DNA of 41,245 bases from a virus, in the IMG/VR virus record IMGVR_UViG_3300037502_002453, positions 1-41,245 of that record, one strand, 5' to 3'. The stretch's first letter is position 1. The number at the start of each line of letters is the position of its first letter. Positions 2,903 to 39,458 of the stretch are shown here, in pieces. Position numbers and translations under genes: made by a program. A model generated the notes under the pieces. The model was given only the letters and a program-made list of their open reading frames with translations, ran no database searches and was not told where the DNA came from.

Positions 2903-3610
2903 ATGCTGTATCGCGTGGAGATCAAACTAGAATCCGACCTGCTCGGCAGCGTCCCCCTCGACCGCGACGTCTACACCGACTACATCGCGTCAAAAATCCC
3001 CGTCGCCGTCGCCGAAATCAACGGTCACAATTTTGACGCCGACATCGCCGCCATCCCCGAAGAAAAGCGCGGCGTCACCGGCTTCTTCAAGCTGCCCGAT
3101 GGCCGTCCCTACCTGGGCCGCCACGTCGTCAAGGGCTTCATGAAATCCGCCGTCGCCGCCATGCGCGCCGCGGAGAGCGCACCCGCCACCGGCCGCGCCA
3201 AAGCCGGGGCCAAACTCGATTTTTCGTCGAGCGCGCTCACGGCCTACGCCAGCAAGATCGACATGCTGGTCAGCGTGTGGCCGTTGCGAATCCCCCTGCT
3301 GCTGGCGGGTCCGCTGACGCAACTCAGCCGCCCGCTGCGTGCAATGACGATGCAGGGGCCGCGCGTGGCGTTGGCGTCGTCGGAGATGGCCCCGGCGGGT
3401 ACGTCGTTGGTGTGCGAAGTAGGGGTCATGGGGGATAGCACCATCACGCCCGACATGGTGCGGGAGATTTTCGACTATGGCGTCATTCAGGGTCTTGGCC
3501 AGTGGCGCGGGTCGGGCATGTACGGTCAATTCACTGCGGAGGTGACGAAGGTCGCCAAGCCGCAGTTTACCCCTCGCGCGTCCTGGAAATTCTTCGGGGT
3601 GCGGGGCTAA
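2903..3610 (+). CDS. Phage protein with RAMP-like (Cas7/Csm3-type) sequence features
   Basis: 235 residues, three bases after thyX. No certain family. The pattern resembles RAMP-superfamily RNA-binding proteins: an N-terminal strand (LYRVEIKLES), a central GRPYLGRHVVKGFMKSAV (residues 67-84) that looks like the PyIPGSSLKGaLRs segment of Cas7/Csm3 proteins, and a C-terminal Gly-rich loop GLGQWRGSGMYGQF (197-210) in the place of the RAMP glycine loop. I have an unverified impression that phage proteins of unknown function with a similar GxGQWRxSGxG end are widespread. No CRISPR locus is present. Directly downstream lies the 31-nt-phased pentamer array, so an RNA- or DNA-coating role on that element is a tempting inference. 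Confidence 0.75.
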   Translation: MLYRVEIKLESDLLGSVPLDRDVYTDYIASKIPVAVAEINGHNFDADIAAIPEEKRGVTGFFKLPDGRPYLGRHVVKGFMKSAVAAMRAAESAPATGRAKAGAKLDFSSSALTAYASKIDMLVSVWPLRIPLLLAGPLTQLSRPLRAMTMQGPRVALASSEMAPAGTSLVCEVGVMGDSTITPDMVREIFDYGVIQGLGQWRGSGMYGQFTAEVTKVAKPQFTPRASWKFFGVRG

Positions 3611-3626
3611 GTCGCGTAGACGCGCA

Positions 3627-4215
3627 GTAATGGCATTGCATAGCACAGTCAAGGCGAGGCGAAGCCGAGGCAAAGCGGTGTGTGGGCAAGGCGGCGCTAG
3701 GTGCGGGCAAGGTACTGTTCGCTCAGTGTGGGCTAGGTATTGTACGGTCCTGTCGCGCAGGGGCGGAGCAAAGCACGGCGGGGGCGCGGCATGGTTGGGT
3801 GTAGTCGCGCGGCGGCAAAGCTGCGTGTCGCGAAGCAATGCCCTGGCTAGGCGAAGCGCTGCATGACACCGTCCGGGCATGGCAAGGCAAAGCCGAGCGG
3901 CGTCACGGCACAGTTACGCGAGGCGGTGTCGCGTCCTGGCAAGGCAAAGCCCTGTGCCGTAAGCAACGGCAGGATAATGCGGAGTAGCGTACTGCGGCGG
4001 TGTTGCGTAGCCTCGTGTGGTGACGTGGTGGCGTAGTGAAGCGTGGCGTTGCGGCGTCATGGCACAGCGCAGCGGCGTCATCCACAGTCAGGGTACAGCG
4101 CAGCGATGCGTGACGTAGCGGTGGCAGAGCAAAGCAAGGCAAAGCAGGGCGGCGGCATAGCGTTGCGTGGCTTTGCAGCAGCAGAGAAACGCAGGGCAGC
4201 GGCAGGGCAATAGCG
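3627..4215 (+). repeat. Non-coding GY-pentamer array with 31-nt superperiod
   Basis: This gene-free stretch is made of five-base units that begin with G then C or T (for example GCAGA, GCAAA, GCAAG at 4124-4138). About every sixth unit is six bases long and nearly always ends in G before the next GY, so the register moves by one. Block starts fall at 3784, 3815, 3846, 3877, 3908, 3939, 3969, 4000, 4031, 4062, 4093, 4124 and 4155: eleven steps of 31 and one of 30. By hand, 72 of 77 expected positions from 3784 to 4175 carry GY. The left part (3633-3784) uses shorter blocks of 16 and 21. The units are otherwise degenerate. Open frames across it on either strand break the pentamer logic and look spurious. 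Confidence 0.92.
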
Positions 4216-4227
4216 AAGGGGGGCGAC

Positions 4228-4650
4228 ATGCGGGGGGCGAGTCGAATCGTGGTGGCCGGGGGGCAGGATGGCCTGTCCCCCGTCGTCAAGGCGGCACATG
4301 CTGAGTACGACAAGTTCGGCGGCCAGGTGGTGCTGGACAATGTAACCGTGCGGCTGTGGGATCATCGCCGCAACTGCCACGTCCTGTGCCGCGGCACGGT
4401 GATCAGCGTCGGCAAGCCCCCGCCCGTCAAGCCGGTGCGCCTGAAGAAGCGCGAAGCCGACGGCATCGTCCACCCCGACGCGCGGCGCATTCACCGCTAC
4501 CTTCAGCGCGTCAACGCCGCCACGCCGACGGAGATTGCGCGCGGGTTGACGATCAGCGCGGGCCGGGTGCGCTCGTTGCTCAGCACCCACGCCGACCTGT
4601 TCGAGGCGCGGCGACAGTCCAGCAACCAGACGTGGTACGGCGCGCGGTGA
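4228..4650 (+). CDS. Winged-helix DNA-binding protein
   Basis: 140 residues. The C-terminal half (about 85-135) reads as a winged helix: HPDARRIHRYL, then PTEIARGLTISAGRVRSLLSTH as helix-turn-helix, then a short wing. The N-terminal half is beta-rich and unrecognised. The ATG at 4228 follows a G-run (4218-4223) acting as Shine-Dalgarno and begins 13 bases after the pentamer array. Placed between the array and a strong promoter with a palindrome (4703-4718), it is a candidate regulator of that promoter or a binder of the array (inference). Confidence 0.75.
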   Translation: MRGASRIVVAGGQDGLSPVVKAAHAEYDKFGGQVVLDNVTVRLWDHRRNCHVLCRGTVISVGKPPPVKPVRLKKREADGIVHPDARRIHRYLQRVNAATPTEIARGLTISAGRVRSLLSTHADLFEARRQSSNQTWYGAR

Positions 4651-27540: not shown

Positions 27541-28764
27541 TTACACCTCAGAGCGGGCTGCCGGAGTTGTAATCTGCTCCAGTGTTGGCGTCTTTCCCGT
27601 CGCCGTCGCCCACCGCTCCAACGCCACCGCCACATACCCCGGCGCAATCTCCACCGCCCGACACCGCCGCCCCAACGCCTCGCACGCCAACAACGTCGTC
27701 CCGCTGCCGGAGAATGGATCGAAAACATCGCCAGCCGTGCAATTCGCTATCAACAAACAAATCCAGTCGATAGGTTTGCTGTGATTGTGTTCCGATTTTG
27801 CGTGCAATTGCGTGATAGGATGTGAAAATACATCAGACAGATGCTTGCCCCGTGGATCAGGAATGAACGTATATTCGCCCCTCGTATTCCAAACCGTTCG
27901 CTGTTCTCCGCTGTCGCCATAATGCCAGCCGTCAAAATTGTATTTCTCGATGTTGCCGTACCAGCAACAATGCTTTGATCGGCGCAACGGGCGATTTGGC
28001 GTATACCAAGATGAAATACAATCCCACGCAAATAACCAAGTTGGCGATCCGTACCGATCAACAACTTTGCCAACAGTAGCGCCATCGCAAAATGCCAACA
28101 CGGAGTCATAACCGATAATAGCCGCTGGCATCGCGTCCCATTCCGGATCAAATATCAATGTATTTGCCTTCTCCCCCCCCATCAATCGCGCCACCACCGC
28201 CCCATCCGTGCAGTCCCCGCAGATCAACCGATGCGCCCCCAACTCCCACAACTGCCCCGGCTCTACTCCCCACTTTTGACGCAATTCCTCGGCGCGGTCA
28301 ACTTGCGGCTCAACGTCCCCCACCGCCTTGTTGTCTGTCTTGTACAGCCCCGCATCCTCGGCCAACGCTGCCAACATCTCCTGCACAGCCGCCTCGCCAC
28401 TGTTGACGCTAGACAGCAGCGCGTCCAGGGCCGCGGCGTCGGCGTCCGCCATCGCTGCCAGCGGGTCGTGGGTGGCAAGGATGTAGTCCGCCTCCGCGTC
28501 GTCAACGTCTAGCACCAACACGGGCCACTTTTGCGGCGCGGCGTCCCGGCGCAGATGGCCGTCAATGACGGTGAGCTTGCCGCCGTTGCGCTCGCTGCGA
28601 TAGGCCAGGATTGCCCCGGCAATGCCCACGTCGGACAGCACGCCACGCAGCGCGTCGACTTGCGCCTTGCCGTGGTTGCGCCAGTTGCCCGGATGCGGCT
28701 CTAGGCTCTGCGCGTCGTGGTATTCCAAGCCGATGATACGATCTCGGTAGTTAACTGTTTTCAT
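27541..28764 (-). CDS. ParB-like / DNA methyltransferase fusion with foreign central segment
   Basis: 407 residues. Residues 8-100 are a ParB/sulfiredoxin-type domain (LEPHPGNWRNHGKAQVDALR, VIDGHLR). The rest is an SAM-dependent DNA methyltransferase of the N4/N6 beta type: AdoMet motif DVFDPFSGSGTT (346-357) near the C-terminus and motif IV before it. Motif IV reads FDPEWD (205-210) where DPPY is expected. Residues about 199-347 are encoded by markedly AT-richer DNA (27722-28170) than their surroundings, so the catalytic/target-recognition part was probably swapped in from elsewhere. It is upstream of terS. It may protect phage DNA from restriction. Confidence 0.88.
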   Translation of the reverse strand: MKTVNYRDRIIGLEYHDAQSLEPHPGNWRNHGKAQVDALRGVLSDVGIAGAILAYRSERNGGKLTVIDGHLRRDAAPQKWPVLVLDVDDAEADYILATHDPLAAMADADAAALDALLSSVNSGEAAVQEMLAALAEDAGLYKTDNKAVGDVEPQVDRAEELRQKWGVEPGQLWELGAHRLICGDCTDGAVVARLMGGEKANTLIFDPEWDAMPAAIIGYDSVLAFCDGATVGKVVDRYGSPTWLFAWDCISSWYTPNRPLRRSKHCCWYGNIEKYNFDGWHYGDSGEQRTVWNTRGEYTFIPDPRGKHLSDVFSHPITQLHAKSEHNHSKPIDWICLLIANCTAGDVFDPFSGSGTTLLACEALGRRCRAVEIAPGYVAVALERWATATGKTPTLEQITTPAARSEV

Positions 28765-28804
28765 ACCTCCACCCTACCCCCTTTGCCTTGCCGCCCCGCC
28801 AAAC

Positions 28805-29080
28805 CTACCACGGCAAATCCTGTGCGCTGACCTCGCCGATACCCCACACCAGCCGATTGTGCGGCCCCGACACGCAGCGCAGCGGCACATGCTCGCTGGC
28901 CGCCAGACGGTCAAGCATCCCCCACGCCCCGTTCTCCGTCAGCCCCGTTAGCTCCGCCACCTGGCGCGTCGTGAACCAGCGCCCCAGGGCCATGAGGTAA
29001 ACCACGCGGGCCACCCGCAGCGTCACCGTGTCAGGTGCGTCGTCTGTTGCCGCCACCGTCACCCCCGTCGCCACAATCAC
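28805..29080 (-). CDS. Winged-helix protein
   Basis: 91 residues. Residues about 22-75 form a winged helix: RVARVVYLMALGRWFTTRQ, then VAELTGLTENGAWGMLDRLA and a basic wing. The GTG start at 29080 overlaps the upstream stop (GTGA). It is the last gene of the leftward replication/accessory operon; a local regulator of phage genes is plausible. No ligand-binding part is visible. Confidence 0.75.
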   Translation of the reverse strand: MIVATGVTVAATDDAPDTVTLRVARVVYLMALGRWFTTRQVAELTGLTENGAWGMLDRLAASEHVPLRCVSGPHNRLVWGIGEVSAQDLPW

Positions 29081-29193
29081 GCGCCCGCGTTGCGCAGCAG
29101 CGCGTCAATGTCGGCGTCATCCCACAGCCACAGCCACGCCGCCCGCGTCATGTCGTCCCCGTCCACATGGTACGCCGCACGCTGCTCGCTCAC
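29077..29193 (-). CDS. Very small acidic protein (38 residues)
   Basis: A 38-codon frame with GTG start at 29193 inside the upstream stop (GTGA) and a stop that overlaps the next GTG (GTGA). The product reads SEQRAAYHVDGDDMTRAAWL near the start and ends DIDALLRNAGA; Trp-rich and helical. Overlap at both ends is the main evidence that it is real. Function unknown. Confidence 0.65.
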   Translation of the reverse strand: MSEQRAAYHVDGDDMTRAAWLWLWDDADIDALLRNAGA

Positions 29194-29408
29194 GCCTGCA
29201 CCCCCTGTCGCCGCAGTTCCTCGCGCACAGCCTCCCGCACGTCGGCGCGCGCCGACACATACACCGTGCGCCCGTGGCTCAGCGCGTCCACGATCTCATC
29301 CAGCTTGGTCAACGTCACCATCGTCATCGGATGGTAGCGGCCTTCGTGCAGTTGGTTGTCCATCACGATCCACTCGTATGCGGGACTCGCGCCCCCGCCG
29401 ATTGCCAT
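29190..29408 (-). CDS. Hypothetical small protein
   Basis: 72 residues from the ATG at 29408, one base after the previous stop; a start at 29429 would overlap that gene. The sequence has a beta part (YEWIVMDNQLHEGRYHPMTMV) and a C-terminal helix (SARADVREAVREELRRQG). It is followed by a four-base overlap with the next gene. Not recognised. Confidence 0.68.
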   Translation of the reverse strand: MAIGGGASPAYEWIVMDNQLHEGRYHPMTMVTLTKLDEIVDALSHGRTVYVSARADVREAVREELRRQGVQA

Positions 29409-30608: not shown

Positions 30609-31612
30609 GCGTCGCCCCCTTCCAGACGAAACAGCGTGCGCCGCCCGATGCAATGCGGCGAGAACCATAGCCGCTCCTTGTGCCGGTTGGCCTCGTTTAT
30701 GCCGCCGATCGCCTTGCTGCTGCCATACGCCTTGTTCGCCGAGTAGCCAACCATGCGCCAGGTTGACGGCATGTGCGCGGCATGCTCATCTTCGTAGCCC
30801 GCCAACACAATGCGGTAGCGGGGATTGTCCCCGTTGGCAATGGCCCACTCCCTCACCGCGTGCGCCACGTCTAGGTCGTCTACGGCATACAAGTCGGCGG
30901 TGCGCCCCGCCGCGTTGCTGTACGGCGGGTCAAGAAACACCCCAACGCTGTCGCCGTAATTCAGCGCGCCGCCGGTGACGACGCGGCTCCAGTCGCCGCA
31001 CACCACGCGCACGTTGCGGAGGCGAGCCGCAAGTTCGCGCATGTAGGTGTAGAGCGCGCCCTGCCCCGCGTCGCCCAGGTGCGGTAGCTTCCGGTTGACG
31101 CCACGCCCCGCGTCGCCCAGGTGCGGTAGCTTCCGGTTGACGCCACGCCCCGCGTCGCCGTCAACCGGAAGCGACGCGATGGTTTCGTAAGTGTGCGGTC
31201 CTGTGCCGCTGCACCAGCCGGAGCCGATCCACGCGCAAATGCCCCACACCCACCAGCCCGCAATCTTGGCGTCGTACCAGTCGGGGTCGGCCTCCATGCC
31301 CGCCTGCATCCGCCGCTTGCCCTCATTGACCAGCCACAGGTGACGCGCAAACAGGTCGGTCTCGTTAACGGGCCAGTCGGCATAATGCACCACCTGGTCG
31401 GGGTCATGCGCGAGCGCGCGCCAAAAATTCGCAATGTACTGGTCGGCGTCGTTGACCGTCTCGGTCGTGCCCTTATGCCACGTCGGGCGGTCAAGCAGTA
31501 CGGCAAGGCTGCCCGCAAACGGTTCGACGTAGTGGTCCACGTCGCCCAACGCCTCCCACACCTGCGGCGCGACTTTGCGTTTGCCACCGAACCACGGGAA
31601 TGGAGCCTTCAC
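30605..31612 (-). CDS. Dam-type (D12 class) N6-adenine DNA methyltransferase
   Basis: 335 residues. The family motifs are clear: FPWFGGKRKVA (5-15), the AdoMet motif YVEPFAGS (28-35) and catalytic DPPY (228-231, in FLDPPYSN). It would methylate adenine in a short DNA site, probably against host restriction. Residues 152-182 hold a tandem 14-residue repeat (GDAGRGVNRKLPHL) encoded by two identical 42-bp units, inserted in the target-recognition region. The start overlaps the previous stop by four bases. The sequence specificity cannot be read from this. Confidence 0.93.
   Translation of the reverse strand: MKAPFPWFGGKRKVAPQVWEALGDVDHYVEPFAGSLAVLLDRPTWHKGTTETVNDADQYIANFWRALAHDPDQVVHYADWPVNETDLFARHLWLVNEGKRRMQAGMEADPDWYDAKIAGWWVWGICAWIGSGWCSGTGPHTYETIASLPVDGDAGRGVNRKLPHLGDAGRGVNRKLPHLGDAGQGALYTYMRELAARLRNVRVVCGDWSRVVTGGALNYGDSVGVFLDPPYSNAAGRTADLYAVDDLDVAHAVREWAIANGDNPRYRIVLAGYEDEHAAHMPSTWRMVGYSANKAYGSSKAIGGINEANRHKERLWFSPHCIGRRTLFRLEGGDA
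31064..31147. repeat. Two identical 42-bp tandem repeats inside the Dam-type gene
   Basis: Unit 1 (31064-31105) and unit 2 (31106-31147) are identical; 12 bases of a third unit follow to 31159. The segment 31129-31142 then pairs with 31159-31172 as a perfect 14-bp-arm inverted repeat. In-frame unit length (14 codons) allows copy-number change without loss of the reading frame. Confidence 0.93.
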
Positions 31613-37520: not shown

Positions 37521-38069
37521 CTAAACGTAGCTCTGCTCCGCGAGTTCAACGCTCACGTCAATTAGGCTGGCGTGGTGGACGGCGGCGCGCAGTTCCTTGA
37601 TCGGCACGGCGACAGACAACGTTTCATAGCCATTGTTTTGCGCCTTGATGGGCGGGTAATACTTCTCGATCCATTCGTCCCTGTGGTGCAGCCATGCGCG
37701 CCTGAGCATGTGCCACGGGAACAAGTAGACGCGCTTGCTCGGCATGAACGCATAGGCCAGATAGTCAATCGCCAAGTCCTTGTCCATCCACCCCGGCGCG
37801 CCGGTGGTGCTGACGCTGACGTACTCCAACAGGATGTCGGTGTAGTCTTTGGCGCGCTTCTTTTCGTCCACATACAGCGTGTGGCCGTTGGCGAGTTGGA
37901 TCACGCGATCCACGCCGCGCCGCTGGTTGTCGTTGCTGCCACCGCAAAGCATGTGGCCTACCATGTTGGGGAACGCCTTGCGGTACACGGCCTCCCAAAA
38001 CGGCTCGCAGCTTTTTTCCTCGCTCCAGGCTAGACGCTCTCGAAAGTCGTGGGTCGGTGCGTTAATCAT
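37521..38069 (-). CDS. Restriction-endonuclease-like protein paired with the MT-A70 methyltransferase
   Basis: 182 residues. The middle has GVDRVIQLANGHTLYVDEKKRAKDY (about 52-76), giving Asp54, Asp68, Glu69 and Lys70/71 as a possible PD-(D/E)XK active site; DILLEYVS follows as a strand-helix. The rest, including the Trp-rich KRVYLFPWHMLRRAWLHH, is unrecognised. Its ATG overlaps the last codons of the methyltransferase gene by eight bases, so the two are coupled. A cognate nuclease of a restriction-modification pair, or a DNA-processing nuclease, are both possible; neither is shown. Confidence 0.65.
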   Translation of the reverse strand: MINAPTHDFRERLAWSEEKSCEPFWEAVYRKAFPNMVGHMLCGGSNDNQRRGVDRVIQLANGHTLYVDEKKRAKDYTDILLEYVSVSTTGAPGWMDKDLAIDYLAYAFMPSKRVYLFPWHMLRRAWLHHRDEWIEKYYPPIKAQNNGYETLSVAVPIKELRAAVHHASLIDVSVELAEQSYV

Positions 38070-39417
38070 TGGCTTGGTTCCCCCAGGCGGCCCAACCCGG
38101 ACGGGCGTTGCGCGCGAACAATTCTATGCGTGCGTACTCCGGGTACATGCTCTCGATCAGCGCGTAGAACTCGGCAGGCTTCTCACTATGTTCAGTCGAG
38201 CGGCGCACCCGCACAACCGACGGCGGGCGGTTCGCCGGTTCCGGCGTCGGTAGGTTGCCGCGCGTGGCAATCAGCAGAAGTTCATGCTGCTGACGGGCAT
38301 AGTAGCCCATGCCGATCACCTCTTTGTCCCACACCATGCAAGTGCGATAGGTGAAGCCCCAGGCGTCGATCACCTGCATAGACTCGGCCAGCTTGGGTGA
38401 CGTAGCCCACAGGAATAACACAGCGTCGGGCGCGGCGACCTCGCCCACGGGCAGCGCGCAGATTTGCGCCAAGTCCATCGTGGGGTAGTGGTTCTCAATT
38501 TGCCGGTTGTCTGTCCGGCTATGCTCATACCTCCAGGGCGGATCGGCGTAGATCACCGGGTAGCTGGTGACAGCGGCCAACGGCGCATTGCCGCGGGAAA
38601 TGGCGTTAATCTTCTCTACCCGCTCAACCCGGCGCGCCTCGCGCACCTCTTGCCGTTCCTGTTTGACTTGCGCCTCAGCCGCCACTGGGTCAAGCGTCAC
38701 TGCCCCACCCGGCACAAAACGCGACGACGGCGGGGTCGGCGTCCGCAAGTCCATGTGTTCGTCGGCGGTCGCATGGTCGCAGTATTCGCACACCCAGGTC
38801 GGCGCGTCGTGGTGGGGCGAATACTCCCACTTGGTGTGAGTTTCCCAGCAGTACTTGCAGCGCGCCAGCCCGCCGGTGTACCGGTTCGGCACGTCGGCTT
38901 CCTCGTCGTCACAATCCTCGTCGTCAACAAACAGCGCCGGGGCCGGGGCCAGAGGCGCAACGGGCTTGCGCTCAGCCGGGTAGGTCTTGCCATCCGCGCC
39001 GGTGACATGGGCAGGTGTTGGATTTCCAACACCTGATTTCGCAACGGCTTTGTGGACTGTAGAAACGTCAACCCCCACCACCTTGCCGATCTGGCGCAGG
39101 CTCATGCCGTCGGCGCGCATGGCGCGCATAACCTCTTCGCGCTGCTCTCGGTTCAACTGTCGGCGCATGACATTCAGCCGCCGGGCGTGGTTGCGCTTGG
39201 CTTCCTCCGTCATGCCTGTTCGCACCATGCGCGGATAGTCGGGCAGCGTCACGCCCTCGGCGCGCAATTCCTCCCACGCTCGCACCCGGTGGTGGCCGTC
39301 AAGAATATTGCCTTGCTCGTCCACTTCCACTGGCACAAGCACCCCATGCTGCGCCACGTCTGCCTTCAGCCCCTCGAACTCTATCGGGGTCAGGGCTGGC
39401 ATTACCTGATATTTCAC
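38062..39417 (-). CDS. ParB-HTH-zinc-MT-A70 adenine methyltransferase fusion
   Basis: 451 residues from the GTG at 39417, which follows GGAGGAGG; an ATG at 39450 lies at the predicted transcription start and is less likely. Domains: ParB-like nuclease fold (10-55, with NILDGHHRVRAWEEL), a helix-turn-helix (90-125, MSLRQIGKVVGVDVSTVHKAV), a zinc ribbon CKYC ... CEYC (187-213), a charged helix, and an MT-A70 methyltransferase with catalytic DPPW (292-295) and IENHYPTM. It would N6-methylate adenine, guided by its own DNA-binding parts. It leads a three-gene leftward unit with the nuclease-like gene and the regulator. Confidence 0.92.
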   Translation of the reverse strand: MKYQVMPALTPIEFEGLKADVAQHGVLVPVEVDEQGNILDGHHRVRAWEELRAEGVTLPDYPRMVRTGMTEEAKRNHARRLNVMRRQLNREQREEVMRAMRADGMSLRQIGKVVGVDVSTVHKAVAKSGVGNPTPAHVTGADGKTYPAERKPVAPLAPAPALFVDDEDCDDEEADVPNRYTGGLARCKYCWETHTKWEYSPHHDAPTWVCEYCDHATADEHMDLRTPTPPSSRFVPGGAVTLDPVAAEAQVKQERQEVREARRVERVEKINAISRGNAPLAAVTSYPVIYADPPWRYEHSRTDNRQIENHYPTMDLAQICALPVGEVAAPDAVLFLWATSPKLAESMQVIDAWGFTYRTCMVWDKEVIGMGYYARQQHELLLIATRGNLPTPEPANRPPSVVRVRRSTEHSEKPAEFYALIESMYPEYARIELFARNARPGWAAWGNQAND

Positions 39418-39458
39418 CGTGCCTCCTCCGTTATGGCATATCAAAACCACTACGGATA

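Follow-up and report, generated by a model that had tools for sequence, protein, structure and literature searches.

Organisation of the locus

The DNA analysed here, referred to below as the window, is a 41,245-nt viral stretch (IMG/VR record IMGVR_UViG_3300037502_002453, positions 1 to 41,245). Between the gene for a 235-amino-acid protein and an open reading frame of 140 codons lies an intergenic tract built of short units that begin with G. The features of the locus are as follows.

2903..3610, plus strand: vipr gene, encoding a 235-amino-acid Cas7-like RAMP (Vipr homologue) with the glycine loop GLGQWRGSGMYGQF (AlphaFold2, Foldseek, hhalign)
about 3611..4217, plus strand: putative vrRNA (guide) array, made of GYNNN units interrupted every few units by a 6-nt GYNNNG unit (segmentation, template, strand and position in homologues)
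3784..4154, plus strand: most regular part of the array, in six-unit blocks (31 nt, one of 30) whose 6-nt units end in G right before the next GY (segmentation)
4228..4650, plus strand: 140-amino-acid ORF directly after the array, with a sub-threshold Sigma70 region-4-like HTH (Pfam PF04545, E 0.063)

The chain reported by our detector spans 3601-4217; the vipr stop codon lies within the first units of this chain. Gene and RNA names follow VIPR (Viral Interference Programmable Repeat), a system described on bioRxiv in April 2026 (PMC13142463). According to the main text of that paper, VIPR comprises the RAMP protein Vipr and vrRNAs built from YNNGG repeats; in each repeat, NN pairs with bases of double-stranded DNA and one target base is skipped (xNN); the system silences competing phages, and guide function was shown in the SUSP1 system. 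Seven types are distinguished there. The characterised type has a GGY/NN 'or a related consensus', vrRNAs that comprise 9-16 repeats and end in a structured 3' tail that does not vary, and a vap gene. Type II, whose vrRNA arrays are transcribed and co-purify with Vipr, is represented by phage SUSP1 and a Pseudomonas fulva prophage; other types are described as having a 'related consensus', 'staggered arrays with overlapping vrRNAs' or hammerhead-interspersed arrays (PMC13142463).

The tract is a regular array of five- and six-nucleotide units

An initial annotation, made by reading the letters, had described a five-base rhythm of G-C and G-T cores with one extra base inserted after about six units, and had proposed Fourier and autocorrelation analysis as a check. 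The rhythm is real. Over 3627-4215, the Fourier spectrum of a GY indicator peaked at 5.16 nt with a power of 33.8, compared with a maximum of 11.7 in 100 dinucleotide shuffles, and the autocorrelation had peaks at lags 5, 21, 26, 31, 62 and 93 (z up to 9.9). Dynamic segmentation divided the array into 111 units: 90 are five nucleotides long, 20 have six and one has four. On the plus strand GC or GT stood at the start of 105 of the 111, and 19 of the 20 six-nucleotide units had a final G, in agreement with the form GYNNNG that had been read from them. Searching the window with a 16-core template (up to 3 mismatches) gave 22 matches, all inside 3732-4181, where shuffled sequence leads one to expect 0.01.

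The same annotation had called the 31-nt superperiod strict. This holds from 3784 to 4154, where the blocks are 31 nt long apart from a single 61-nt double block (31+30). The outer blocks measure 11, 16, 21 or 26 nt, that is 5n+1, and in related arrays the 6-nt unit recurs every 5-7 units; since blocks of 21, 26, 31, 36 and 41 nt all occur, we dropped the strict rule.

Stops are present in all six frames across the array, which is therefore non-coding. Identity at lag 31 is only 0.42, so the array is not a recent tandem duplication, and the earlier view of a pattern kept by rule stands. It is also not CRISPR in the strict sense: there are no exact repeats, the 31-nt blocks share only 42% identity, and the fixed element is a dinucleotide core that recurs every 5 nt. 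Position 5 of the window's five-nucleotide units is G in a fraction of 0.30 (0.25 over all arrays), and in arrays of the window's clade GGY is found mainly after a 6-nt unit. Folding of the array RNA revealed no excess stability (z -1.0), and a search of the window against Rfam returned tRNA only. Elsewhere in the window, at 31037-31212, there is a short 52-nt tandem duplication with a weak GY chain (score 12.4), separate from the main array.

Related arrays share the spacing of the six-nucleotide unit

A template of 14 cores, containing no protein information, was scanned over viral contigs and matched at least 119 stretches. The similar tracts in other phages that the initial annotation mentioned thus exist, and the comparison it had suggested shows the same 5/6 grammar recurring in them, over array lengths of about 100 to 3,200 nt among the viral matches listed. 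Across these relatives the 6-nt unit comes every 5-7 units, where random placement would yield geometric spacing, and mean unit length is tight (interquartile range 5.16-5.18). The 6-nt unit and the unit after it are A-rich and less variable (GYAANG then G-Y-A), and the variable bases inside blocks are near uniform.

In some phage pairs the arrays have stayed much alike for dozens of units, with the 6-nt units at corresponding places. The frequency of substitution per site in homologous arrays is 5.7% at Y, 8.0% at position 3, 10.6% at position 4 and 11.6% at position 5. Such conservation is slower change than expected if guides always turn over fast, and it counts against a guide reading. Unit-by-unit conservation of this extent was seen between different phages in the sets L103/L105, L046/L066 and L034/L060/L071.

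Several other arrays deserve mention. Some phages have at least two long arrays, not always directly beside vipr (L027/L046 and L042/L066, each on the same contig, and L098, L120 and L011). Contig JAFVPU010000146.1, from a Clostridia MAG, has 526 units in 2.7 kb as well as 174 units beside its Vipr gene (L162 and L176), among the longest arrays seen, with guides that are internally duplicated and diverged. A Dehalococcoidia locus (L170) carries its array upstream of the gene (array 1048-1919, Vipr 1933-2547), with repeated guide segments; its Vipr is the most divergent homologue, on the longest branch. A long GC-core array with many 4-nt units (L025, 2985-4723) may be something else, and a Vipr homologue was not found in its 42-kb record. 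Four pattern matches on Actinobacteria chromosomes (L150, L160, L165 and L175) were rejected, being GC-rich near-tandem repeats with no Vipr gene nearby.

The adjacent gene encodes a remote homologue of Vipr

The AlphaFold2 model of the 235-amino-acid protein (pLDDT 88.7, pTM 0.84) had as its top Foldseek matches type VII Cas7, Csm3 and Cas7-11, with E values from 1.5e-7 and TM of about 0.5. Profiles of the family matched Cas7 (PDB 21bh, E 1.9e-5) and Csm4, and weakly (E 0.13) PDB 36pp_D, the 'SUSP1 Vipr protein'; PADLOC matches to Cas7/Csm3 were weak (best 1.9e-5), and no Pfam or PHROG family covers the protein. Direct alignment of the family with SUSP1 Vipr by hhalign gave a probability of 93.3 and an E value of 2.7e-7 over 177 columns that include the glycine loop, compared with a probability of 0.15 for a neighbouring SUSP1 protein used as a negative control. 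Residues G197, G199, Q200, R202, G208 and F210 are invariant or nearly so in the family. The protein thus has the RAMP backbone of class 1 CRISPR-Cas, and also the combination by which Vipr is recognised, namely a RAMP with an RRM core, a glycine loop and homology to Vipr. It is a Cas7-like RAMP and a full-length remote homologue of SUSP1 Vipr.

SUSP1 (KT454805) also served as a control for both searches. Our detector found exactly four minus-strand arrays there, within 27620-27965 and 29165-29235, and none on the plus strand; they flank two genes at 28031-29061, one array on one side and three on the other, as published (main text of PMC13142463). The best SUSP1 ORF by the family HMM is the RAMP of the VIPR locus. 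Counted from GY, position 5 is mostly G in SUSP1, unlike in the window's clade.

No viral relatives were found for the ORF at 4228-4650, which is possibly a vap-like gene. Across 104 loci there was no conserved accessory (vap-like) neighbour, the neighbours being mostly replication and recombination genes. Two further genes of the window, at 27544-28764 and 38065-39450, encode methyltransferases, and their N-terminal regions have additional PHROGs matches to ParB-like families.

Array and gene occur together

As judged by HMM, a homologue of the window's protein is encoded in 91 of the 119 viral stretches listed. The other 28 lie in 27 records, 16 of which have a homologue elsewhere in the record. 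Homologues beside arrays are 28-50% identical to the window protein, and the array is usually within a few nucleotides of the vipr stop codon, with a median gap of 4 nt; it follows the gene in 72 cases and precedes it in 13. As in published VIPR loci, then, vipr is flanked by an intergenic pentanucleotide array.

In the reverse test, loci were fetched by protein alone, which removes ascertainment by the DNA pattern. GY arrays (score at least 12) were present in 52 of 80 such loci, and most of those without one carry a variant with a G[A/C] core. The 6-nt units were again 5-7 units apart; since this rule holds in loci chosen only by protein, the search pattern did not create it. Altogether, 152 distinct Vipr homologues divided into 96 with GY arrays, 52 with G[A/C] arrays (an approximate number, as the label reflects a score difference and some of these arrays, being mostly GC, could belong to either type) and 4 with none. 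An array thus accompanies 148 of the 152, rather than the unpatterned sequence that the initial annotation would have counted against its reading; the threshold was a score of 10, and shuffled regions reach 7.3 or less. On the Vipr protein tree, arrays of like core type group together, requiring 20 changes compared with 43-46 when shuffled (0 of 500 as low). Examples of the sister variant, with the same 6-nt unit spacing, are L268 5395-5986, L254 5023-5202 and L282 3203-3341, among others.

Where arrays contain at least 20% GT cores, these lie on the strand of the gene in every case (56/56 pattern-selected and 14/14 protein-selected). Prokaryote genomes (257 Gb) yielded 75 pattern stretches, about 10 of them with Vipr, compared with the at least 119 stretches of the viral collection, and a plasmid search found no Vipr homologue. 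The window itself carries TerL, portal, major head protein and tape measure genes. Like published VIPR, the system is encoded mainly by phages or proviruses.

Statistics of the variable bases

If the variable bases copy a target, bases adjacent in that target should show genomic dinucleotide bias even when they are separated in the RNA. Position 5 and the next position 3, which have G-Y between them, showed such a bias among five-nucleotide units of the first array set (z 5.4), and also from a five-nucleotide unit into a 6-nt unit (z 4.0). The same pair gave z 2.7 in the new, protein-selected arrays and 3.7 in the G[A/C] arrays, with a similar effect size across the sets (7.5-9.8 per thousand). 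Positions 4-5 also carry the genomic adjacent-base signature. Across the 6-nt unit the bias was absent (z 0.8, -1.9 and 0.0, on smaller samples). The bias between position 5 and the next position 3, and its loss across the 6-nt unit, suggest that the NNN triplets are read contiguously, without the 1-nt skip of the published code. We therefore tentatively favour a code in which the NNN of each 5-nt unit, G-(C/T or C/A)-NNN, stands for three neighbouring bases of the target, and the 6-nt unit, every 5-7 units, ends a segment. Read in this way, and with the same reserve, one long transcript with neither repeats nor spacers could hold many segments, each about 15-21 nt long.

A codon-phase test for in-frame triplets was negative. 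Targets were sought by brute force, comparing all decoded arrays with 1.2 Mb of array loci under many position and skip rules; by block-wise search of decoded arrays; by blastn of contiguous decodes against 50,697 phages (INPHARED); and by three exact-pattern viral scans. None of these yielded anything beyond chance, nor did a search for overlap between blocks of one array. As these searches found no natural target for any decoded array, the case for guide function in this clade is one of homology and statistics.

Discussion

The linkage of the array to a Vipr homologue, with arrays at 148 of 152 homologues, makes it very probable that the tract in the window belongs to a variant form of VIPR, encoded by the phage, and is its guide-RNA (vrRNA) array; we give this explanation as a whole a probability of about 0.88. 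For the window array, transcription, binding, targeting and silencing are steps that we infer, silencing by analogy with the published SUSP1 system (PMC13142463). The array would probably be transcribed in the sense direction together with the vipr gene just upstream. Vipr subunits may then line up along the transcript, each occupying one 5-nt unit and gripping its fixed G-Y core, and the variable bases would be left exposed to pair with the DNA of rival phages or mobile elements, leading, as in SUSP1, to silencing. In the triplet reading, the three bases after each core would be read contiguously, giving 3 bp of target per unit with no skip; GYNNNG every 5-7 units would end one reading segment, and a 31-nt block would specify about 18 target bases.

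The code might instead be that of the characterised type, two paired bases per unit and one skipped, with the 6-nt unit serving only as structural spacing of the RNA-protein filament. Such an arrangement matches the published xNN reading (PMC13142463). When units are aligned on their GY cores, NN falls at positions 3-4 and the G of type II at position 5, which is the position that changes most often in homologous arrays (11.6%, against 8.0% at position 3). However, position 4 changes nearly as often, and a free position 5 would not predict the genomic signature at 4-5 and between 5 and the next 3 in three array sets; we consider a skip code rather unlikely here. The initial annotation had proposed a row of protein subunits on duplex DNA or on its transcript. 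The row of subunits remains part of our interpretation. If the tract were a site on duplex DNA, for instance a centromere or a sequence used in packaging or replication, where a row of proteins sits every half turn (5.17 bp), this would account for the tight mean unit length, which is close to half a turn of B-DNA. Such a reading is scarcely credible given that GT cores are strand-specific and always on the gene's strand, that the linked protein has a Cas7-like RNA-binding fold, and that type II arrays are transcribed and co-purify with Vipr (PMC13142463). The strand bias of GT cores and the Cas7-like RNA-binding partner together indicate that the recognised molecule is most likely the transcript, not duplex DNA.

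The transcript might also be a structural scaffold or a decoy coated by Vipr, for example a sponge for Cas7 subunits of a host CRISPR system. This would fit the empty target searches and the existence of very long arrays (526 units) that are conserved between phages. Near-uniform variable bases inside blocks, the dinucleotide signature across units and the guide function shown for the SUSP1 homologue (PMC13142463) speak against it, and we regard it as very unlikely.

The annotation knew of no described element of this kind, a view that is superseded by the VIPR paper, in which the broad mechanism is already known (PMC13142463). As in type II, a single small phage-encoded RAMP lies beside intergenic pentanucleotide arrays with G-Y cores, which flank the gene on its strand, and the proteins are remote full-length homologues. 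In contrast to type II as presented in the main text, the fifth base in the window is variable rather than G; one continuous array of about 111 units takes the place of separate vrRNAs of 9-16 repeats plus tail; the clade has a regular 6-nt unit every 5-7 units and, among 104 loci, no conserved vap-like gene; and adjacency statistics favour contiguous triplets. The window array thus departs from the vrRNA form of the characterised type, and the 3' flanks of arrays had no consistent structure, with no structured tail seen. It departs also from the strict GGY/NN repeat consensus, which lowers assignment to type II but not to VIPR, as the paper's 'related consensus' would allow it; the clade is possibly the same as one of the other types, described by that phrase and by staggered arrays (PMC13142463). 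Compared with the class 1 Cas7, Csm3 and type VII backbones, the RAMP fold and glycine loop are shared and a row of subunits on guide RNA would work alike, whereas the window has no repeat-spacer array and its fixed core recurs every 5 nt inside the guide rather than capping it.

The main text of PMC13142463 mentions no 6-nt unit, 31-nt superperiod or G[A/C] core. The 6-nt punctuation, the G[A/C] core class and the tentative contiguous triplet code therefore go beyond that text, although its supplement may record part of this. The DNA pattern alone finds such systems without a protein search, and long tail-less arrays could offer compact multi-guide programming. Finally, VIPR has been claimed as the ancestor of CRISPR guides. 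A clade that seems to read the 'skipped' base, and whose arrays have an extra nucleotide at roughly every sixth subunit, would stand naturally between the gapped code and class 1 CRISPR with its contiguous spacer.
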